Assembly (NCBI RefSeq): GCF_003258365.1
Contig: NZ_QHKM01000006.1
Span: 62,001 to 126,000 of the forward strand
Source of the DNA: Hymenobacter edaphi
GTDB taxonomy: Bacteria; Bacteroidota; Bacteroidia; Cytophagales; Hymenobacteraceae
Length of the DNA: 64,000 nucleotides
Direction of reading: 5' to 3'
Both the position numbers and the translations under genes were made by a program. This document shows positions 5,236 through 49,913 of the stretch, piece after piece. The notes below the pieces were generated by a model. That model searched no databases and was not told the origin of the DNA. It saw only the letters and a list, made by a program, of their open reading frames with translations. How positions within the stretch are numbered: position 1 is the stretch's first letter; the number at the start of each line of letters is the position of its first letter.

Positions 5236-6621
5236 GTGGTACAAGTGCTTCAACAAATTCTCTTTCTGCTCGTCGCAGTCCTGGGCATCGGGCTGTTTGC
5301 GTGGCAGGTGCGAAAGATTCGCGCCAACATTCTGCAGGGCAAGGACCGCCTGATGGGCGGCTCCGTGGCCGAGCGCGTCAACAAAACCCTGCTCGTCGCC
5401 TTCGGCCAGCAGAAGATGTTCAAGCGTATCACGCCCGCCCTGCTCCACCTGGTGGTGTACGTGGGCTTCCTCGTCATCAACATCGAGGTCATCGAAATCA
5501 TGATTGACGGCCTGGCCGGCTCGCACCGCATTCTGCGGGTGCTCGGCCCGGGCTACGACGCGCTGATGGCCACCAACGAGGTGCTCGGCGCGCTGGTTAT
5601 CGTGGCCGTGGCCGCCTTCTGGTGGCGCCGCAACCGCACGCAGCCCGTGCGCCGCCTGACCGGCGTGGAGCTGCGCGCCTGGCCCAGGCTCGACGCCAAC
5701 ATCATTCTGTACGTGGAAGTGGCGCTGATGCTGGCCCTGTTCACCATGAACGCGGCCGACCTGAAGCTGCACCAGCTGCGCGGCGAAGAAATGCCCGGCA
5801 CCTTCCCCGTCAGCGCCCTGCTGGTGGGCCTGATGCCCGACAACGTGACGGCCCTGCACGTGCTGGAGCGCGTGGGCTGGTGGATTCACATCGTGGGCAT
5901 CCTGGCGTTCCTGAACTACCTGCCCTCGTCCAAGCACTTCCACATCATCATGGCCTTCCCGAACGTGTACTACTCGCGTTTGGTCCCGCAGGGCCAGTTT
6001 TCCAACGTCGACAGCATCACCCACGAGGTGAAGGCCATGCTTGACCCGAGCTACCAGGTACCCGCCCCGCCCACCGACGCCGCCGGCAACCCGGTGGTGC
6101 AGCGTTTCGGGGCCAAGGACGCCGACGATTTGCCCTGGACCAACCTGCTCAACGCCTACTCCTGCACCGAGTGCGGCCGCTGCACCTCGGTGTGCCCGGC
6201 CAATATCACCGGTAAGCTGCTCTCCCCGCGCAAAATCATCATGGACACGCGCGACCGGCTTGAGGAGAAATTCAACTCCCCGCTGATTTTCGAGCCCAAC
6301 AAGTACCAAGGCGAGGAGCGCATGCAGGTGGATGAGGAAGGCTCCCTGGTGCGCGGCTACGTGACGCCCGAGGAGCTGTGGGCCTGCACCACCTGCAACG
6401 CCTGCGTGGAAGCCTGCCCGGTCAACATCAACCCGCTGGACAGCATCATCGAGATGCGCCGCTACCTGGTGCTGGAAGAGTCGGCCGCGCCGAACTCGCT
6501 GAACGTGATGTTCTCCAACATCGAAAACAACGGCGCCCCCTGGGCCTTCTCGCCGTCGGACCGCTTCAACTGGGCCGACGACCTGTACGTGGCTGACAAG
6601 GAGACAGGAATTAGAAGCTAG
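5236..6621 (+). CDS. Membrane iron-sulfur protein, HdrD/GlpC-like electron-transfer subunit
   Basis: 461 residues. An N-terminal membrane part with several helices (about residues 1-255; HLVVYVGFLVINIEV is one) is followed by a cytosolic double [4Fe-4S] ferredoxin domain with CTECGRCTSVCP near 310-321 and CTTCNACVEACP near 383-394. This is the layout of heterodisulfide-reductase-like quinone-linked proteins. The CCG-domain half is encoded separately by the next gene. In Bacteroidota and actinobacteria such pairs are thought to pass electrons from flavoproteins, possibly electron-transferring flavoprotein, to menaquinone; that role is inference here. The start is GTG at 5236, just after the palindromic promoter region. 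Translation stops only 75 bases before its partner. Confidence 0.8.
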   Translation: MVQVLQQILFLLVAVLGIGLFAWQVRKIRANILQGKDRLMGGSVAERVNKTLLVAFGQQKMFKRITPALLHLVVYVGFLVINIEVIEIMIDGLAGSHRILRVLGPGYDALMATNEVLGALVIVAVAAFWWRRNRTQPVRRLTGVELRAWPRLDANIILYVEVALMLALFTMNAADLKLHQLRGEEMPGTFPVSALLVGLMPDNVTALHVLERVGWWIHIVGILAFLNYLPSSKHFHIIMAFPNVYYSRLVPQGQFSNVDSITHEVKAMLDPSYQVPAPPTDAAGNPVVQRFGAKDADDLPWTNLLNAYSCTECGRCTSVCPANITGKLLSPRKIIMDTRDRLEEKFNSPLIFEPNKYQGEERMQVDEEGSLVRGYVTPEELWACTTCNACVEACPVNINPLDSIIEMRRYLVLEESAAPNSLNVMFSNIENNGAPWAFSPSDRFNWADDLYVADKETGIRS

Positions 6622-6696: not shown

Positions 6697-7596
6697 ATGG
6701 CTGAGCAAGTAGCCAAACGACAAGTTTCCGTGCCGCTGATGGCCGACCTCGCAGCCCGCGGCGAATCGCCCGAGGTGCTCTTCTGGGTTGGCTGCGCCGG
6801 TGCGTTCGACGACCGGTACAAGCGCGTGACCCGCGCCTTTGTGCGCATTCTGGAGCACGTGGGCGTGAAGTACGCCGTGCTGGGCATGGAAGAAACCTGC
6901 ACCGGTGACCCGGCCAAGCGCGCCGGCAACGAGTTCCTATTTCAGATGCAGGCCATGCAGAACATCACCACCTTCGACGGCTACGGCATCAAGAAGATTG
7001 TGACGGCCTGCCCGCACTGCTTCAACACCATCAAGAACGAGTACCCCGCGCTGGGCGGCAATTACGAGGTCATTCACCACAGCACCTTCCTGCAGCAGCT
7101 CATCAACGAGGGCCGCGTGAAAGTGCAGGGGGGCGAATCCTACAAAGGCCGGCGCATCACCTTCCACGACAGCTGCTACCTGGGCCGCGCCAACGACATT
7201 TACGAAGCCCCGCGCGAGGTGCTGGCCGCCCTCGATGCCGACCTGGTGGAGATGAAGCGCAGCAAAGCCAACGGCCTGTGCTGCGGCGCCGGTGGCGCCC
7301 AGATGTGGAAAGAGCCCGAGCCCGGCAAAAAGGACATCAACGTGGAGCGCACCGAGGAAGCCCTGGCCACCCTCGACGGCAACGCCGCCGCCCTGGACGC
7401 CCTCTACGGCGTGGAAAGCGGCAACGCGGGGGCTACACCTTCGCCGAACAAGGCCGACAACGGCATCATCGCCGTGGGCTGCCCCTTCTGCATGACCATG
7501 ATGAGCGACGGGGTAAAGAACAAGGAGCGCGAAAGCTCGGTACAGGTATTCGACCTGGCCGAACTGGTGGCCTCCGCCGAGGGCCTCAACGCCTAA
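6697..7596 (+). CDS. CCG-domain (Fe-S)-binding protein, HdrB/LutA-like
   Basis: 299-residue soluble partner of the preceding membrane protein. It carries two cysteine-rich CCG domains, the first with VGCAGAFDDR and TACPHCFNTIKNEY, the second with HDSCYLGRANDIY, LCCGAGGAQMW and VGCPFCMTMMSDG. In heterodisulfide reductases and related enzymes these cysteines hold a noncubane or additional Fe-S cluster at the active site. Together the two genes make a complete HdrD-like unit split over two polypeptides. The substrate is unknown; feeding electrons to menaquinone is the most likely role. A short non-conserved Ala/Gly/Pro insertion (about 235-250) separates the final motif from the core. A terminator hairpin follows. 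Confidence 0.82.
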   Translation: MAEQVAKRQVSVPLMADLAARGESPEVLFWVGCAGAFDDRYKRVTRAFVRILEHVGVKYAVLGMEETCTGDPAKRAGNEFLFQMQAMQNITTFDGYGIKKIVTACPHCFNTIKNEYPALGGNYEVIHHSTFLQQLINEGRVKVQGGESYKGRRITFHDSCYLGRANDIYEAPREVLAALDADLVEMKRSKANGLCCGAGGAQMWKEPEPGKKDINVERTEEALATLDGNAAALDALYGVESGNAGATPSPNKADNGIIAVGCPFCMTMMSDGVKNKERESSVQVFDLAELVASAEGLNA

Positions 7597-7629
7597 GCCC
7601 GGCCATAAGGCCAAACCTGCTACCTTTCA

Positions 7630-7674
7630 GGCCCGCGCCGCCGGAACTTTTGTCCGGGGCGCGGGCCTTCTCAT
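7630..7674 (+). terminator. Terminator after the CCG-domain gene
   Basis: GC-rich hairpin (GGCCCGCGCCGCCGG / CCGGGGCGCGGGCC, loop of about 9) followed by TTCTCATTTT. Confidence 0.65.
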
Positions 7675-7740
7675 TTTGGGCCGCAGTTGCTTCATTACGG
7701 GCCTGGCCGCGCGCTGCGCCCTGCCTTTCTCTCTATCTAT

Positions 7741-8235
7741 ATGTTCGTCGCTTTTCACGAACTCCCCGCCACGGCCCGCGTCTGGATTTACCAGGCCAGC
7801 CGCCCCCTCACCGACGCCGAGCTGACGGCCGTGCAGCCCGCCCTGCAGCAGTTCTCGGAAGCCTGGACCAGCCACGGCCGTACCCTGCGCGCCTCGGCCG
7901 AGTTTCGCTACCGCCAGTTCCTCGTCATCGGCCTCGACGAAGCCGTGGCCGATGCCAGCGGCTGCTCCATCGATGCCTCCGTGCGCTTCGTGCGCGAGCT
8001 GGAAGCGGCGCTGGGCCTGACGCTGCTGGCCAAGGAAGAACTGGCGTTTCTGGCGCCCGACGGGCAGGTACAGCTCGTGCCGCGCCGCGAACTGAAGCAG
8101 GCCGTGCTGGCCGGGCGGCTGCAGCCCGACTCGCCGTATTTCGACAACACTATTGCCCAGCGCGCGGCGCTGGAAACGGCCTGGCCGGCCCCGGCCGCAA
8201 CGACTTGGCTGGCCCGTTATTTTGCTGGCAACTAG
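7741..8235 (+). CDS. Conserved Bacteroidota protein (often labelled ABC transporter ATPase)
   Basis: 164-residue soluble protein starting MFVAFHELPATARVWIYQA, with the conserved block SGCSIDASVRFVRELE in the middle. This family is widespread in Bacteroidota and is usually annotated as an ABC transporter ATPase, but it has no Walker A, signature or Walker B motif, so that name is not supported by the sequence. The ATG at 7741 aligns with the family start. It is monocistronic, preceded by the terminator of the CCG gene. Function unknown. Confidence 0.75.
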   Translation: MFVAFHELPATARVWIYQASRPLTDAELTAVQPALQQFSEAWTSHGRTLRASAEFRYRQFLVIGLDEAVADASGCSIDASVRFVRELEAALGLTLLAKEELAFLAPDGQVQLVPRRELKQAVLAGRLQPDSPYFDNTIAQRAALETAWPAPAATTWLARYFAGN

Positions 8236-43110: not shown

Positions 43111-43839
43111 CCGGCCGCTGGTGCGCTGCCGGGCGCCCCGGCCCGGAATCTGGCGCAAACCGACGTTGTTCATAAATAAATCATATTGGATTCGGCCAAC
43201 GTCTATTGACTGGGCAAGTCTTGTCACCTACCTTGCCCGCATCATCCCGCACGTTTCGGCGGCCCCGGCTTTTACTACACGGCGCCCCGGCTATACACTT
43301 ACCCGCAGGGTCACACCCCCACGCGGCCGCTTCTACGCTTTCCGCTTTCTTACTGCCTGCCTACGCACCGGCTACGCTGTGCGTACCAGCGCCGAGCCAC
43401 GCCCGTAGCTCGGCGGCGGGTGCGCGTCTCAGTTATCTGGCGGCGTTTTTAGCTGTTCTGGTCCTGCGCAGGCAGGCGGGAAGGAGGACGCATTCTATCC
43501 ACCACTAGCCTCATGCTGTGCCCGGCACGGCAGGCCTAGCCGACTCCTCATTCTATGCGTGCCCGCCACTTCTGCCCGCCGCCGGCCAGCCCCTAACAGC
43601 TAGCCCCGTTGCTTGTGCCGCGCCCCCGCCCCTGCGGGTTTCGGCCGCCTCCTGACTGCTCCGCGCTGGAGTCGGTTGGGCAGCGCCTTGTGCGGAAAAA
43701 TACAATTTATGTTCACTGGGTGGCTCCTCGTAGGGAGCCTGCTTGCCAGTGCCTTAGCCCGTGCCTCGCCCGGCCTCTGATTTTGTGCTTTTCACTACCG
43801 GGCACCGCCTGTCCGGCCATAATCAACCCTTCTTTTATC
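43111..43839. other. Long gene-free region upstream of the M4 metalloprotease
   Basis: 729 bases with no credible coding frame. It has a promoter-like site at 43206-43236 and a GC-rich tract with many short repeats (CCCGCC, GGCAGGC). No tRNA, known riboswitch or repeat-array pattern was recognised. If the promoter is used, the mRNA leader would be about 600 bases. Confidence 0.5.
43206..43236 (+). promoter_or_regulatory. Promoter-like site upstream of the M4 protease gene
   Basis: TTG, 20 bases, TACCTTGC. This is the normal spacing, with a -7 box lacking one T compared with TAnnTTTG. Confidence 0.35.
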
Positions 43840-46647
43840 ATGAAAAAAAGCTACCTGAGTTACGCCTGGCTGTTCGCCGGCCTGCTCGCGCCCGCTGCCC
43901 TGCAGGCGCAGGATTCCGGCCCCAAGCCGCACCGCACGTTGGCCCGCAACGGCGAGCCGGCATTGGTCGAGTTTCGCAGCCAGGGGCTGCAGTACCGGAC
44001 GGATCAGGTGCAGCGCCTGTTCGCCTCGGAGCTGCGCCTGGGGCCACACGACCAGCTGTTGCGCCAGGAAGCGCCGGCCACCGATGCCATCGGGGTGGCG
44101 CACGAGAAGTTTCAGCAGTTCTTTAAAGGAGTAAGGGTCGAGGGCAACAACTACACGGTTCACAGCCGGGAAGGCGTGGTGGAATCATTGAGCGGCCACT
44201 TCGAGCGCATTCCCGAGGGCCTCTCGGCCACGCCGGCCCTGCCGGCCGACAAGGCGCTGGCGGCCGCGCTCAGGCACGTGGGCGCCACCCGCTACATGTG
44301 GCAGGACCCCCGGGCGGAAGCCCAGCTGCGTGAGCAGGAGCACAACGACCGCGCCACCTACGCCCCAACCGGCGAGCTGGTGGTGGTGCACGCCCCCGCC
44401 CGGCGCAAACCGGCCGCGGAAGCCCGCACGGTGCTGGCCTGGAAGTTCAACATCTACGCGCAGGAGCCCGTCAGCCGCGCCTACGTGTACGTGGACGCCC
44501 ATTCGGGGCAGGTGGTGTTGGTCAACGACATCATCAAGCACGCCACCGGCACCTTCGAAACGCGCTACAGCGGCACCCAGACCGGCAATACCGAGCCGGG
44601 CGGCTGGGGGTACGAGCTGCGCGACAACTCCCGGGGCGGCGGCATCGAAACGTGGGACTACAACGCCGGCTCGATCTTCACCGACAACGATAACAACTGG
44701 ACGGCTGCCGAGTACGACAACGCCGACAAGGACAACGCTGCCCTCGATGCCCACTGGGGCGCCCAGGCCGTGTACGATTACTGGAAAAACGTCCACAACC
44801 GGAACAGCTACGACGGGCAGGGCGGCACGCTGCGCAGCTACGTGCACTACGGCACTGGCGTCGACAACGCGTACTGGGCCGGCAACGGGACCATGTACTA
44901 CGGCGACGGCTCGTATTACTTCACGCCGCTTACTTCGCTGGATGTGTGCGCCCACGAAATGGGCCACGGCATCTGCGAAACCACGGCCAACCTCTACTAC
45001 GGCTACGAGTCGGGGGCGCTGAACGAGGGCTACTCCGACGTGTGGGGCGCCGTTATCGAAAACTACAAAGCCCCGAACAAGCAGAACTGGCTGATCGGGG
45101 AGGAAATTACGATTGGCGGCGGGGCGCTGCGCTCGATGAGCGACCCCCACGCCTACGGGCAGCCGGCCTACTACCAGGGCCAGTACTGGGACCCGTTCGA
45201 GGAGGTTCACACCAACAGCGGCGTGTTCAACCACTGGTTTTACATCCTGAGCACGGGCAAGGCGGGCGTGAACGAGGGCGGCAATGCGTACCGCGTCAAC
45301 GGCATTGGCATGGCGGAGGCCGCCAAAATTGCCTTCCGGGCCGAAAGCCAGTACCTGAGCATGTGGAGCGAGTACTGGGACGCGCGCACCTACACCATTC
45401 AGGCCGCCATCGACCTGTACGGCTACGGCTCGGCCGAGGAAATAGCGGTGACCAACGCCTGGTTTGCCGTCGGTATTGGGGCCGCGCACCCCGGCCTGCC
45501 CTTCGCGCCCTTCAGTACCCACCAGATTCTGGCCAAGCACAGCGGCAAGGCCCTCGATATCAACAAGGCCAGCCAGAGCCCCGGCGCCGCCGCTATTCAG
45601 TGGCCCTTCGACCCCTACACGCTCAACCAGTTCTGGTACATTCAGCCGGTAAGCAGCAACGCCTATAAGCTGACCGCCGCCCACAGCGGGCAGGCGCTGG
45701 AAATCGGCGGCAGCAACACCAACGCCGGGGCCCTGGCCAACCAGTGGCCTTACGTGGGCGGCGCCAACCAGCAGTTCCGAATCGAAAACGTGGGCGGCAA
45801 TGATTTCCGCATCGTGGCCCAGCACAGCGGGCAGGCCCTGGAAGTGGGCGGCGCCAGCCAGGACGACCGGGCCACGGTGAACCAGTGGCCCTACCAGGGC
45901 ACCGACCACCAGAAATGGAACCTCGCGCAGGTCGGCGTCTACAAGATTGTCAACAAGCACAGCGGCCAGGCGCTGGACATCCGCCAGGCCAGCCAGACGG
46001 GCGGGGCCGGCGCCATCCAGTGGCCCTTCGATCCGAACACGTCCAACCAGTACTGGGAAATCCAGAGCGTGGGCAACGGGCGCTACAAGCTGATTGTGCA
46101 GCACAGCGGGCAGGCCCTGGAAATTGGCGCGGCCAACACCAACCCCGGCGCCCTGGCCAACCAGTGGCCCTACTGGGGCGGCACCAACCAGCAGTTTGAA
46201 ATCGAAAGCGTGGGCGGCGGCGCGTTCCGCATCATCGCCGTGCACAGCGGGCAAGTGCTGGAAGTGGGCGGCGCCAGCACCGCCGACGGCGCTACCATAA
46301 ACCAGTGGCCCTACCAGGGCACCGACCACCAGAAATGGTACATCCAGAGCATCTACCGCGACTACATCCCGCGGCCGGCGGGGAGCACGGCCGACGTGAC
46401 GCAGGCCCCGCTTACCAACACGCTGGCGCTGTATCCGAACCCGGCCAGCAACCAGCTGACGCTGGCCGTCGCCGGCACCGGCCAGCTGAGCACCGCCACC
46501 ATCACCGACGCCCGCGGCGCCGTGTTGCTGACCGGCCGCCCCGATGCCAGCGGCAAGCTGGACATCAGCAAGCTTAAGCGCGGCCTCTACTTCGTTACCG
46601 TCAGCGACGGCACGCGCACCTACCGGCAGAAGTTTGCCAAGGACTAA
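43840..46647 (+). CDS. Thermolysin-like (M4) metalloprotease with two ricin-type modules and T9SS sorting domain
   Basis: 935 residues. Signal peptide (MKKSYLSYAWLFAGLLAPAALQAQ), FTP/PepSY propeptide (about 30-220), M4 catalytic domain with HEMGH (372-376; zinc His372, His376, Glu373) and the third ligand Glu396 in NEGYSD. Then six repeats of about 46 residues, each around a HSG(Q/K)AL(D/E)I core and QWP, forming two ricin-type beta-trefoils (about 560-840). Last comes a T9SS type A domain (LALYPNPASNQLTL, ending in TYRQKFAKD). It probably degrades protein while bound to glycans. The ATG at 43840 starts the signal peptide; no good start precedes it. Confidence 0.9.
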   Translation: MKKSYLSYAWLFAGLLAPAALQAQDSGPKPHRTLARNGEPALVEFRSQGLQYRTDQVQRLFASELRLGPHDQLLRQEAPATDAIGVAHEKFQQFFKGVRVEGNNYTVHSREGVVESLSGHFERIPEGLSATPALPADKALAAALRHVGATRYMWQDPRAEAQLREQEHNDRATYAPTGELVVVHAPARRKPAAEARTVLAWKFNIYAQEPVSRAYVYVDAHSGQVVLVNDIIKHATGTFETRYSGTQTGNTEPGGWGYELRDNSRGGGIETWDYNAGSIFTDNDNNWTAAEYDNADKDNAALDAHWGAQAVYDYWKNVHNRNSYDGQGGTLRSYVHYGTGVDNAYWAGNGTMYYGDGSYYFTPLTSLDVCAHEMGHGICETTANLYYGYESGALNEGYSDVWGAVIENYKAPNKQNWLIGEEITIGGGALRSMSDPHAYGQPAYYQGQYWDPFEEVHTNSGVFNHWFYILSTGKAGVNEGGNAYRVNGIGMAEAAKIAFRAESQYLSMWSEYWDARTYTIQAAIDLYGYGSAEEIAVTNAWFAVGIGAAHPGLPFAPFSTHQILAKHSGKALDINKASQSPGAAAIQWPFDPYTLNQFWYIQPVSSNAYKLTAAHSGQALEIGGSNTNAGALANQWPYVGGANQQFRIENVGGNDFRIVAQHSGQALEVGGASQDDRATVNQWPYQGTDHQKWNLAQVGVYKIVNKHSGQALDIRQASQTGGAGAIQWPFDPNTSNQYWEIQSVGNGRYKLIVQHSGQALEIGAANTNPGALANQWPYWGGTNQQFEIESVGGGAFRIIAVHSGQVLEVGGASTADGATINQWPYQGTDHQKWYIQSIYRDYIPRPAGSTADVTQAPLTNTLALYPNPASNQLTLAVAGTGQLSTATITDARGAVLLTGRPDASGKLDISKLKRGLYFVTVSDGTRTYRQKFAKD
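45523..46350 (+). repeat. Internal duplication within the M4 protease gene
   Basis: Two blocks of about 415 bases (from about 45523 and 45943) encode three ricin-type repeats each. They are nearly identical at many codons, for example AACCAGTGGCCCTACCAGGG occurs in both, so the second trefoil arose by a recent in-frame duplication. Confidence 0.7.
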
Positions 46648-46954: not shown

Positions 46955-48574
46955 ATGCCCCAATACACCCGTAACAACGCCTGGAACAACGGCGGTACGT
47001 TCGACAATCCCGATGTGCTGTGGTACGCGAAGGGCGTCGGCCAGATGATGCGCCGCGCCCTCAATGACCCGACCAGCTGGTGGTTTTACGCCGCCATCCA
47101 CGGCGAGTACGTGAATCCCGCCACGGCGTGGTACCCCAGCCCGGCTGCCTTCCCGGCCTGGGGCTACATCACCTCCCCGCCCAGCGTACCGACCTCGCCG
47201 CTGCCTTCGCCGGCCATGCAGGAGTTGTACTGGAACCAGTGCCAGCACGGCAGCTGGTATTTTCTGCCCTGGCACCGGGGCTACCTGATGGCGCTGGAAA
47301 CGCAGCTGCGGCAGGACATCGTGGCTCAGGGCGGCCCCGAAACCTGGGCGCTGCCCTACTGGAACTACTTCGGGGGAGAAGCCGGCAGCCAGTTTCAGAT
47401 GCCGCCCGCTTTTGCCGCGCAGACGCTGCCCGACGGAAGCCCGAACCCGCTGTACCTGGCCATGCGCTACGGCCCCGATGGCGACGCTAACATCTACGTG
47501 CCCACGGCCGCCGGCGAAGCCGCCCACCCCAACGACCCCAAACTGCCCCCGGTAGCCAACGAAGTCACCGAGCAGCCGGCGCTGAGCGAAACCCAGTTTT
47601 CGAAGGCCGACCCGCTGTACGGCTTTGGAGGGCCGGACACGGGCTTCTCCCACGACGGCGGGCACTTCGGGCGCCTGGAAAGCAATCCGCACAATAAGGT
47701 GCACGTGTACGTCGGCGGCACGCCGAGCAACACGGCCCTCTATGGCCTGATGGCCGACCCCGGCACGGCCGCGCTCGACCCGATTTTCTACCTGCACCAC
47801 TGCAACATCGACCGCCTGTGGGCCGTCTGGAACGCCAGCGGCAACGCCAACCCAACCGCCCCGAGCTGGTTGGACGGCCCGGCCCAACAGTTTGCCATGC
47901 CCGACCCCAACGGCCAGCCGTGGTACTACACGCCGGGCCAGATGTCGGACCTCGGCGCCCTTGATTACCACTATCAGGAGCTGCTGAGCCAGCCGGCCGT
48001 CGAGCCGGCGCTGGCCACGCGGCTGGTGCTGCTGGGGGCTGCAGCCGCCGCCGCCAAAGTAGCCAGCGAGCCGGCTGCCCCGGTTGCCCCGCGGCAGCCC
48101 GAGCTGCTCGGCGCCAACCGGGGGGCGCTGCGTATCCAGACCGGGGGCACGCAGACGCTGGTGAAAATGGACCCGAGCGTGCGCCACAAAACGGAGGTAA
48201 GCCTGGCCCGCGCAGCCGAAACCGCCCAGCCCGACAGCGCCTTCCTCAAGCTGGAAAATGTGCGGGGCACCTTCGACGCCACGGTGCTGCAAGTGTACGT
48301 GCAGGCGGCCACCGGGGCCGCGGGCGGCGACAAAGCCCTGCTGGCTGACACGGTTGCGCTGTTTGGCCTGCGCCGGGCCAGTGCCGCCGACGGGCAGCAC
48401 GGCGGGGAGGGGCTGACCCTGGTGCTGGACATCACCCACATCCTGGATCAGCTGCACCTGGCCGGGGGCCTGACGGCTGATGCCCTGCAGGTCGACATCG
48501 TGCCTAACCGCCCGCTGCCTGATGGCGGCGTTGTCGAGGTCGGCCGCGTGAGCGTGTACCGCCAGGCATTCTAA
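46955..48574 (+). CDS. Tyrosinase/polyphenol-oxidase family copper enzyme with C-terminal extension
   Basis: 539 residues. Type-3 copper centre: CuA His49 (AAIHGEY), His98 (CQHGSWYF), His107 (LPWHRGYL); CuB His246 and His250 (HNKVHVYVGG) and His282 (DPIFYLHHCNIDRLW). Cys96 lies two residues before His98, the C-x-H arrangement that forms a thioether in fungal and plant enzymes. After the core (about 1-345) there is a Pro/Ala linker and a beta-rich C-terminal domain (about 405-539), as in plant PPO. It oxidises phenols to o-quinones. No signal peptide is visible. It leads a tight three-gene cassette. Confidence 0.88.
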   Translation: MPQYTRNNAWNNGGTFDNPDVLWYAKGVGQMMRRALNDPTSWWFYAAIHGEYVNPATAWYPSPAAFPAWGYITSPPSVPTSPLPSPAMQELYWNQCQHGSWYFLPWHRGYLMALETQLRQDIVAQGGPETWALPYWNYFGGEAGSQFQMPPAFAAQTLPDGSPNPLYLAMRYGPDGDANIYVPTAAGEAAHPNDPKLPPVANEVTEQPALSETQFSKADPLYGFGGPDTGFSHDGGHFGRLESNPHNKVHVYVGGTPSNTALYGLMADPGTAALDPIFYLHHCNIDRLWAVWNASGNANPTAPSWLDGPAQQFAMPDPNGQPWYYTPGQMSDLGALDYHYQELLSQPAVEPALATRLVLLGAAAAAAKVASEPAAPVAPRQPELLGANRGALRIQTGGTQTLVKMDPSVRHKTEVSLARAAETAQPDSAFLKLENVRGTFDATVLQVYVQAATGAAGGDKALLADTVALFGLRRASAADGQHGGEGLTLVLDITHILDQLHLAGGLTADALQVDIVPNRPLPDGGVVEVGRVSVYRQAF

Positions 48575-48597
48575 AAACCCAATTTGCTGCCGGGCCC

Positions 48598-49422
48598 ATG
48601 ATTTACAACCCTCGGGAGTACGCGCGGCTCCGCAACAGCGTGCTGGTCGTGAGCCTGCTGGCGTGGCTGGTGCTGCTGCGGCCGGCCGCCGCACCCGTCG
48701 CCTACGGGGCCGCCGCGCCGCCCGTGATGTCGTACTGCTCGGCCAGCCCGGCGGCCCTGGCCCTGACGGCACCGGCTGCGAGCAGCCCGGCGTCTTGGAC
48801 CACTCAGCTCACCGTGGCCCAGTCCCTGTTTGGGGGCTGGGCCCTGATGCTTGTGGCCATGATGGCGCCCCTGCTGATTCAGCCCATCTACCACATCCGA
48901 GCCACCAGCTTTGCCCGGCGGCGGGCCCGTTCCACCACGTTGTTTGTCGCCGGCTATGGTGGCGGCTGGCTGGTGGGCGGCGCCTTTCTGCTCGCGCTAG
49001 AGCTGGCCGCCGGCCTGTGGGCGCCCGAGTCGTACCTGCCGGCCGGGCTGGTAGCGCTGGTTGCGTTGATCTGGCAGGCCTCGCCGGCCAAGCAGCGGTA
49101 CCTGAACCGGTGCCACCGCCACCGGCCCCTGGCCGCGTTTGGCGCAGAGGCCGACCGCGACGCACTGATGATGGGCGTGGAGCACAGCCGCTGGTGCGTC
49201 GGCTCCTGTTGGGCCGCCATGCTCTTGCCGATGCTGCTGCCCCACGGCCATTTCGCCGCGATGCTGGGAATAAGCGTACTAATGGTGTGTGAGCGGCTCG
49301 ACCCACCCCGCACCCCGGCCTGGCGGTGGCGTGGCTTCGGTACGGCCTTGCGGTACGTGAGCCTGCGCCTGCGAGGGCCGAAGCGCAGCCCGGCTCCCGC
49401 CGCGCTGGGAGTAGGGGCTTAA
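48598..49422 (+). CDS. DUF2182 predicted metal-binding membrane protein
   Basis: 274 residues with a hydrophobic N-terminus and about five helices. DUF2182 hallmarks: WALMLVAMMAP (about 81-91), CHRHRP (172-177) and HSRWCVGSCWAAM (196-208), with a terminal VCERL. Its conserved His, Cys and Met residues lie in or near the membrane. The family is thought to bind metal, and copper handling would fit the tyrosinase partner; neither is proven. It starts 23 bases after the tyrosinase and ends 11 bases before the next gene, so all three should be on one mRNA. Confidence 0.75.
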   Translation: MIYNPREYARLRNSVLVVSLLAWLVLLRPAAAPVAYGAAAPPVMSYCSASPAALALTAPAASSPASWTTQLTVAQSLFGGWALMLVAMMAPLLIQPIYHIRATSFARRRARSTTLFVAGYGGGWLVGGAFLLALELAAGLWAPESYLPAGLVALVALIWQASPAKQRYLNRCHRHRPLAAFGAEADRDALMMGVEHSRWCVGSCWAAMLLPMLLPHGHFAAMLGISVLMVCERLDPPRTPAWRWRGFGTALRYVSLRLRGPKRSPAPAALGVGA

Positions 49423-49433
49423 TTAGCAGTACC

Positions 49434-49913
49434 ATGGATCTGCCTCAGAACGCCGAACAGCTAGGTGTCAGCGCCGAACAACTTCCCGTCGTCGGGGCAG
49501 GCCTGCGTACCAGCGTGCGGCTCACGCCGGCGGGCCGCCGCTACCTGGCCGCCGCTGCCGGTCACGCGGCGCCGGCCCAGCTATACCTGACCCTGGAAAA
49601 CGTTCACGGCACGCGGGATGCGACCGTGTTGAACGTGTACCTGGTTTTCTCCGAGGCGGGTGAGGCCGGCGGGGAACGTCAATTACCGGCGGGCAGTGCC
49701 GCGCTGTATGGCTTGCGCCGGGCCAGCAACCCGCAGGGAAGCAACCGCGCCGGCCTTACGCTGACCTTCGACATCACGCCCCTGCTGGCGGAGCTCCGGG
49801 CTTCGCCGGGGCTGCAGAACGACGGTATCCGCGTCAGCATCATCCCGGATCGGCCATTGCCCGCCACCTCCGATATTGTCATCGGGCGCGTCAGCATCTT
49901 CCGGATGCTTTAA
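49434..49913 (+). CDS. Free-standing homologue of the tyrosinase C-terminal domain
   Basis: 159 residues without a signal peptide. It aligns over about 130 residues with the C-terminal extension of the tyrosinase two genes upstream. Shared blocks: LTLENVHGTRDATVLNVY against LKLENVRGTFDATVLQVY; ALYGLRRAS against ALFGLRRAS; SIIPDRPLP against DIVPNRPLP; and GRVSIFRM against GRVSVYRQ. It therefore arose by duplication of the shielding domain. It may act as a trans cap, maturation factor, or substrate-presenting subunit; none is shown. The start ATG at 49434 lies 11 bases after the DUF2182 stop. Confidence 0.8.
   Translation: MDLPQNAEQLGVSAEQLPVVGAGLRTSVRLTPAGRRYLAAAAGHAAPAQLYLTLENVHGTRDATVLNVYLVFSEAGEAGGERQLPAGSAALYGLRRASNPQGSNRAGLTLTFDITPLLAELRASPGLQNDGIRVSIIPDRPLPATSDIVIGRVSIFRML

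Follow-up and report, generated by a model that had tools for sequence, protein, structure and literature searches.

A conserved free-standing lid gene beside bacterial tyrosinase and PpoB2 genes, with a possible role as a trans-acting lid of the copper pocket

The 64,000-nucleotide stretch of Hymenobacter edaphi DNA analysed here (assembly GCF_003258365.1, contig NZ_QHKM01000006.1, positions 62,001 to 126,000; hereafter the window) carries a three-gene unit in which a tyrosinase with a fused C-terminal lid domain (DUF7868) is followed by a membrane copper chaperone of the PpoB2 family (DUF2182) and by a gene for a free-standing copy of the lid. The tyrosinase-PpoB2 pair is already known, and the new part is the conserved free lid gene, which recurs in the same order in other genomes, is linked to a single clade of tyrosinases, retains the aromatic residue that fills the copper pocket in a solved relative (the placeholder) and is predicted to take the lid fold. 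We favour, with about an even chance of its being right, the reading that the free lid is a trans-acting lid plugging the dicopper pocket with this aromatic residue during copper loading or activation. No description of a free lid was found in the literature searched (titles and abstract starts, most subscription papers lying outside this scope).

The three-gene unit of Hymenobacter edaphi

The unit comprises the following features.

46955..48574, forward strand: tyrosinase with fused C-terminal lid, 539 amino acids (Pfam PF00264 core at residues 40-294, DUF7868 lid at residues 382-537)
48098..48565, forward strand: fused DUF7868 lid domain, residues 382-537 of the tyrosinase (Pfam PF25271, E 1.8e-50)
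48362..48364, forward strand: codon of Phe470, placeholder position of the fused lid, aligned with Phe397 of HcTyr1 (alignments and counting)
48598..49422, forward strand: PpoB2/DUF2182 integral-membrane copper chaperone, 274 amino acids (Pfam PF09948)
49434..49913, forward strand: free-standing DUF7868 lid protein (P0003), 159 amino acids from the ATG at 49434 (Pfam PF25271)
49707..49709, forward strand: codon of Tyr92 of the free lid, placeholder position, in ALYGLRRAS (alignments)

The three open reading frames (ORFs) lie on a single strand within 3 kb and are separated by 23 bases (tyrosinase to PpoB2) and 11 bases (PpoB2 to free lid), exactly as a first-pass annotation made from the letters of the window had described them. 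All three exceed the Pfam cut-offs of their families: the tyrosinase core matches PF00264 with E 9.3e-37 (127.9 bits vs a curated cut-off of 22.6), the chaperone matches PF09948 with E 3.7e-29 (102.4 bits vs 28.7), and the free lid matches DUF7868 over residues 7-157 with E 1.8e-35 (122.7 bits vs 25; profile positions 2-157 of 158). The tyrosinase has the six copper-ligand histidines H49, H98, H107, H246, H250 and H282, assigned by alignment and motif against the HcTyr1 ligands, and their columns are invariant in 47 of 47 tyrosinase sequences. By eye, no signal peptide is apparent at its N-terminus (MPQYTRNNAWNNG...).

Unlike the members of the lid family with known structures, the free lid is an ORF of its own with its own start, unfused to a tyrosinase core. 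The annotation had taken the third protein for a free copy of the C-terminal domain of the first, which the presence of DUF7868 in both, approximately 41% identity and shared blocks (LENVRGTFDATVL / LENVHGTRDATVL, with GLRRAS in both) bear out, with the correction that Pfam places the start of the lid near residue 382 instead of 405. When the whole 6.04-Mb genome was searched at E <=0.001, two DUF7868 matches approximately 1.4 kb apart, one PF09948 match and one PF00264 match were obtained, all within this unit. Because its families match nowhere else in the genome and the arrangement recurs in other genomes, the unit is not a chance arrangement.

The known tyrosinase-PpoB2 pair

A scan with the tyrosinase core over contigs of 84,980 species yielded 185 relatives, and the locus counts given here use the best 80 of them. 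A PpoB2 gene lies beside the tyrosinase in 79 of these 80 loci, the exception (L089) having a stop inside the tyrosinase frame, and core and lid share one frame in 78. The current Pfam name of DUF2182 (PF09948) is "PpoB2, Copper chaperone", and PpoB2 of Marinomonas mediterranea, the second gene of a tyrosinase operon, has been reported to transfer copper specifically to that tyrosinase (PMC2855505). Six residues of the family (M84, M89, H173, C200, M208 and M222 in window numbering) do not vary across an alignment of 89 sequences, duplicates included; as far as alignment can tell, these Met, His and Cys residues are in keeping with copper handling.

The Marinomonas PpoB1-PpoB2 operon (COG5486/PF09948) resembles the present unit in joining a tyrosinase to a membrane copper chaperone of the PpoB2 family; the difference, in a comparison made by description and not by sequence, is that the excerpted account describes the second gene and leaves a free lid unmentioned (PMC2855505). 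We accordingly rejected tyrosinase plus DUF2182 as a novel pair, since it is known as PpoB1-PpoB2 and is nearly universal in this enzyme group. The suggestion of the first-pass annotation that the DUF2182 protein may supply copper is thus supported by both precedent and pairing, and had been made before; its statement that no system of this composition had been described fails for the first two genes, given the Marinomonas operon and the pairing, and holds for the free lid as far as the search above goes.

Distribution of free lids

A lid on a separate ORF was detected at 18 of the 80 loci. One of them, the exceptional L089 (a metagenome-assembled genome of Acidobacteriaceae), was not counted, its separate lid ORF arising from an in-frame stop inside one reading frame, with extra sequence past the lid, and another (L115) was counted as a split enzyme and not as an additional lid. 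In the remaining 16 loci the additional free lid is the third gene after PpoB2 (11 loci), lies between tyrosinase and PpoB2 (two loci, Flagellimonas L082 and Rheinheimera L118) or stands upstream of the tyrosinase (three loci, Acinetobacter L117, L119 and L122, the last at 5482-5937). The 11 third-gene loci, together with the window and two further genomes (G053, locus L025, and G463, locus L028), make up 14 third-gene operons, which span Bacteroidota, Verrucomicrobiota and Burkholderiales (Burkholderiaceae and Oxalobacteraceae). The gene order of L051 is found again on a Burkholderia stagnalis plasmid (L123), where the third gene is annotated only as a hypothetical protein. The first-pass annotation had named a lack of co-occurrence in other genomes as telling against its proposal; a free lid beside tyrosinase and PpoB2 does occur in other genomes. 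Free lids might have been missed in L054, L076 and L110, whose contigs stop less than 400 bases past PpoB2.

With start codons chosen by us, the PpoB2 stop and the free-lid start overlap in eight of the 14 third-gene operons (by 4 or 8 bases); in the other six the start lies 11-56 bases downstream of the stop. Nine of ten free lids tried score over the Pfam cut-off for DUF7868, the Rheinheimera protein falling under it (21.6 vs 25 bits). The domain is rare in Bacteroidota, with 5 positive genomes among 204 of the family, 9 among 390 of the order sample and 7 among 395 of the phylum sample (the samples overlap), and no free lid apart from the tyrosinase-PpoB2 pair was detected in the Bacteroidota genomes searched, each DUF7868 match being either fused to a core or the third gene beside PpoB2.

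The split enzyme, from a metagenome-assembled genome of Paludibacterium (L115, 1458-3732), has core and DUF7868 lid as separate genes followed by PpoB2, so that its only lid is encoded separately; the core stop is followed by the ATG of the lid with a Shine-Dalgarno-like GGGAG just ahead of it. Provided that this genome is correctly assembled, L115 represents a natural enzyme with its sole lid in trans and suggests, from a single assembly, that lids are able to act in this way.

As a separate observation, the longest ORF of the Flagellimonas free lid (7515-8081, forward strand) opens with a hydrophobic stretch and a cysteine and appears lipoprotein-like; this lid may be exported, or the true start may lie further downstream.

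Retained placeholder and predicted structures

In HcTyr1 of Hahella sp. CCB MM4 (PDB 8b74), the copper pocket is occupied by Phe397 of the lid (PMC11609597). The counterparts of this residue, located by alignment and counting, are Phe470 of the window tyrosinase and Tyr92 of the free lid. After removal of 28 duplicate, near-duplicate or broken loci (also left out of the lid tree below), the placeholder position was compared over 81 lids: it is Phe in 61 of 61 fused lids and either Phe (13) or Tyr (7) in all 20 separately encoded ones, among which the split enzyme of Paludibacterium is included. All 19 free lids compared retain Leu66, Leu91, Gly93 and Gly107 (P0003 numbering). Six residues that hardly vary among fused lids (Glu8, Gly11, Asp48, His104, Asp119 and Arg157) have been lost from the free ones or occur there only in a scattered way. 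The placeholder is thus under a constraint that does not extend to other residues characteristic of fused lids and possibly in contact with the core.

No column of Cys, His or Met reaches 50% conservation among the 19 free lids, which argues against a free lid that itself carries copper, a task that PpoB2 can fill. The free lid as a copper binder was rejected on this ground. The proposal of the first-pass annotation that the free domain may cap or load the enzyme in trans therefore fares differently in its two halves: capping fits both the co-occurrence and the kept aromatic placeholder, and loading by copper binding is weakened.

The predicted structure of the free lid (predicted local distance difference test, pLDDT, 91.5; predicted template modelling score, pTM, 0.87) has HcTyr1 (8b74) as its best solved match (Z 15.2, root-mean-square deviation 3.2 over 132 residues), well above the rest. 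Foldseek ranks 2 and 3 are occupied by the C-terminal domain of apple MdPPO1 solved alone (6elt and 6elv), with Z of about 10, a value that jelly rolls of unrelated proteins, among them an N-glycanase (10.4) and TGF-beta pro-domains, also reach. The model of the whole tyrosinase (pLDDT 87.7, pTM 0.91) also matches 8b74 (Z 36.9, root-mean-square deviation 2.6 over 415 residues).

Inheritance and selection

In a tree of 49 tyrosinase cores, from which the lid columns were left out, the enzymes of all 14 third-gene operons form one clade (support 98/92) with no other sampled member; a tree of 47 core rows likewise places 12 of 12 such enzymes in one clade (98/88). A single exclusive clade means that one change of state suffices for the free lid as third gene, and no loss of it was seen among the sampled members of the clade. 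The near outgroup L054, a row without a free lid in both core trees, ends too soon after PpoB2 for a free lid to be excluded there. When the free-lid and core trees of the 14 operons were compared, 7 of 11 splits were common to both, a number reached by none of 2000 leaf permutations (maximum 4).

In the tree of lids, the free lids sit on long branches, and those of the third-gene operons divide into one group from Bacteroidota and Verrucomicrobiota (97/80) and another from Burkholderiales (80/99); L028 is left unplaced. Free lids altogether need five changes in this tree, so that other origins in Acinetobacter, Flagellimonas and Rheinheimera are likely; its bootstrap is not settled, and the placement of the Rheinheimera (L118) and Flagellimonas (L082) lids is unsure.

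The ratio of nonsynonymous to synonymous substitution rates (dN/dS) between the window and Hymenobacter sp. CRA2 (L043), for which synonymous changes are near saturation, is lowest for the core (0.08), followed by the fused lid (0.14), PpoB2 (0.17) and the free lid (0.18). By this sequence comparison, the free lid is under selection. In the Acinetobacter pair L117/L122 the tyrosinase has a value of 0.02 and the free lid one of 0.21, and two Burkholderia pairs give 0.54 and 0.56 (free lid), 0.36 and 0.56 (tyrosinase) and 0.49 and 0.56 (PpoB2).

The free lids of the three Acinetobacter loci are strongly diverged, yet they keep LFG at the placeholder; their origin is probably independent.

Neighbouring genes

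Among ORFs of at least 100 amino acids around the 14 third-gene loci (the contig of L048 being only 5.4 kb long), no further gene of the unit recurs beyond a single bacterial family; other shared families are confined to one genus, apart from one case within Burkholderiaceae (L045 and L051). Approximately 2.5 kb downstream of the Burkholderia stagnalis unit (L123, 9200-10120), a DUF692-family multinuclear iron protein and a methyltransferase are encoded, and around the 14 loci these families do not recur outside Burkholderiaceae.

Directly upstream of the unit in the window (43609-46647, forward strand) lies a gene for a large exported-looking protein, which is classed as an M4-type metallopeptidase because it matches a peptidase annotated as M4 in L124. 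Repeated ricin-type lectin-like blocks and a sorting-tail-like C-terminal end can be seen in this protein by eye. This gene and an M4 gene near a tyrosinase of a Rhizobium plasmid had raised the idea of a metalloprotease as the partner that cleaves the lid. M4 peptidase matches occur near tyrosinases in 3 of 91 sources (the window, L124 and L121; E <=1e-5), and the idea was dropped for this reason.

In a different part of the enzyme, the tyrosinase of L026 (7348-9405, reverse strand), and also that of L030, carries a long insert in the CuB region between the VGG and GLMADPG blocks. The L026 insert has no Pfam match at E <=0.01; by eye it has a LecA-like look, which is unconfirmed.

Proposed function of the free lid and its alternatives

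Together the three genes may form an operon for the maturation and control of a type-3 copper tyrosinase that is latent and probably located in the cytoplasm. Membrane-bound PpoB2 would pass copper to the tyrosinase, whose fused lid would cover the dicopper pocket with Phe470. The free lid, presumably a diverged paralogue of the fused one, would bind the same enzyme in trans. With the fused lid missing, displaced or removed by cleavage, the aromatic residue of the free lid (Tyr92 in the window, Phe or Tyr in other genomes) would enter the pocket. The free lid might thereby hold the pocket open yet plugged while copper is loaded, or re-cap an enzyme that has just received copper or has lost its lid by cleavage. 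It could be an inhibitor, a chaperone or an activator.

An analogy for such a role may be found in Streptomyces, in which a caddie of an unrelated family places Tyr98 in the tyrosinase pocket during copper loading (PMC6312201). Like the free lid, the MelC1 caddie of the MelC2 tyrosinase is a small separate protein from the same operon with an aromatic residue for the pocket (PMC6312201, PMC9454253). It differs in belonging to PF06236 (PMC11608171), whereas P0003 matches PF25271 alone (Pfam, E <=1), and in that MelC1 itself aids copper transport and serves a tyrosinase of a type without a C-terminal lid (PMC11608171, PMC9454253). Of the traits of MelC1, the aromatic plug residue is kept in free lids, docking in the pocket in trans may be shared, and conserved copper-binding side chains of its own are lacking in the 19 free lids compared. 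HcTyr1 has a core and a DUF7868-type lid with an aromatic placeholder, and its fold matches both the full enzyme and the free lid; its lid is fused, and the main text of the source paper does not contain the words PpoB2 or chaperone. The C-terminal domain of apple MdPPO1 (6els, 6elt, 6elv) is able to fold by itself and, when supplied in trans, accelerates self-cleavage of the latent enzyme (PMC6563526), but in that case the separate lid is a laboratory construct or a cleavage product and has no gene of its own. The caddie precedent suggests a cap or loading aid, and the apple lid and HcTyr1 suggest an activator; the sequence evidence favours neither.

Several observations weigh against a trans-acting lid. 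The pocket is already covered by the fused lid, so a second lid needs a reason, and most PpoB2-linked tyrosinases do without one, an additional lid being present in 16 of the 80 loci. Since free lids lack residues that are nearly invariant in fused lids, it may be doubted whether they dock in the same way. The free lid evolves faster than the enzyme, constraint is weak in the two Burkholderia pairs for all three genes, and the lid tree, with third-gene lids in two groups, does not support a single origin for them.

The precedents for activation lend themselves to an alternative in which the free lid competes for the pocket, displaces the fused lid and speeds self-cleavage, providing an operon-borne switch from the latent to the active enzyme. 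Addition of the separately made C-terminal domain raises the self-cleavage rate of apple pro-MdPPO1 with its concentration (PMC6563526), the closest relative of known structure, HcTyr1, slowly removes its lid by self-cleavage with an approximately 10-fold gain in activity (PMC11609597), and according to a 2022 review experimental data on how bacterial tyrosinases are activated in vivo are lacking (PMC9454253). On the other hand, the loss of many residues conserved in fused lids would weaken such competition, the lid of Hahella HcTyr2 is required for activity and stability (PMC11609597), and the linkers of third-gene enzymes are not clearly set apart (42-45 residues in 12 enzymes vs 28-47 in the other 35); we make no claim of a longer self-cleavage linker, as the Mann-Whitney p of 1e-4 ignores kinship. 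We consider this switch unlikely, although worth keeping in mind. A role as an adaptor, in which the free lid would bind PpoB2 rather than the copper pocket and tether or present the enzyme for copper transfer, seems less probable still: the start/stop overlaps and short distances between the two genes make translational coupling possible, and PpoB2 is reported to serve its own tyrosinase specifically with copper (PMC2855505), but an adaptor leaves unexplained the placeholder aromatic, which is among the best-kept features, and in Acinetobacter the free lid is encoded upstream of the tyrosinase, away from PpoB2.

The jelly-roll-like fold, which is common to carbohydrate-binding modules, pro-domains and other proteins (Z 8-10.4), would also suit a protein that caps or regulates another protein or a small molecule, or that serves as a structural subunit of a heteromer with no direct role at the copper site. 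Such another target is improbable in view of the kept placeholder and of the Bacteroidota search, in which free lids never strayed from the tyrosinase-PpoB2 pair. Finally, faster evolution than the rest of the operon, the weak constraint in Burkholderia and the long branches might be taken as signs of a functionless, decaying lid duplicate; reading frames open in 14 operons of three phyla, the dN/dS value between the window and L043, the retained placeholder and the lack of any loss among sampled clade members already disfavour decay, which we regard as very improbable.

Significance

A review distinguishes, in its excerpted text, three architectures of bacterial tyrosinases, namely those with a separate caddie, those with a fused C-terminal lid and those with neither (PMC9454253); a fused lid together with a free copy of the same lid fits none of these. 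It is conceivable, if rather unlikely, that the unit represents a fourth architecture, in which a detached spare lid exchanges with the fused lid and PpoB2 feeds copper during the swap, so that loading and activation would be a single genetically encoded cycle. The free lid may bear on how latent tyrosinases of bacteria acquire copper and become active in the cell. A natural and conserved separate lid provides a three-gene system in which lid exchange, capping in trans and PpoB2-dependent metallation can be separated gene by gene. If the free lid does act in trans as proposed, it would be a natural counterpart to the acceleration of self-cleavage by a free plant lid in vitro, and it may offer a handle on tyrosinase activity in biocatalysis.

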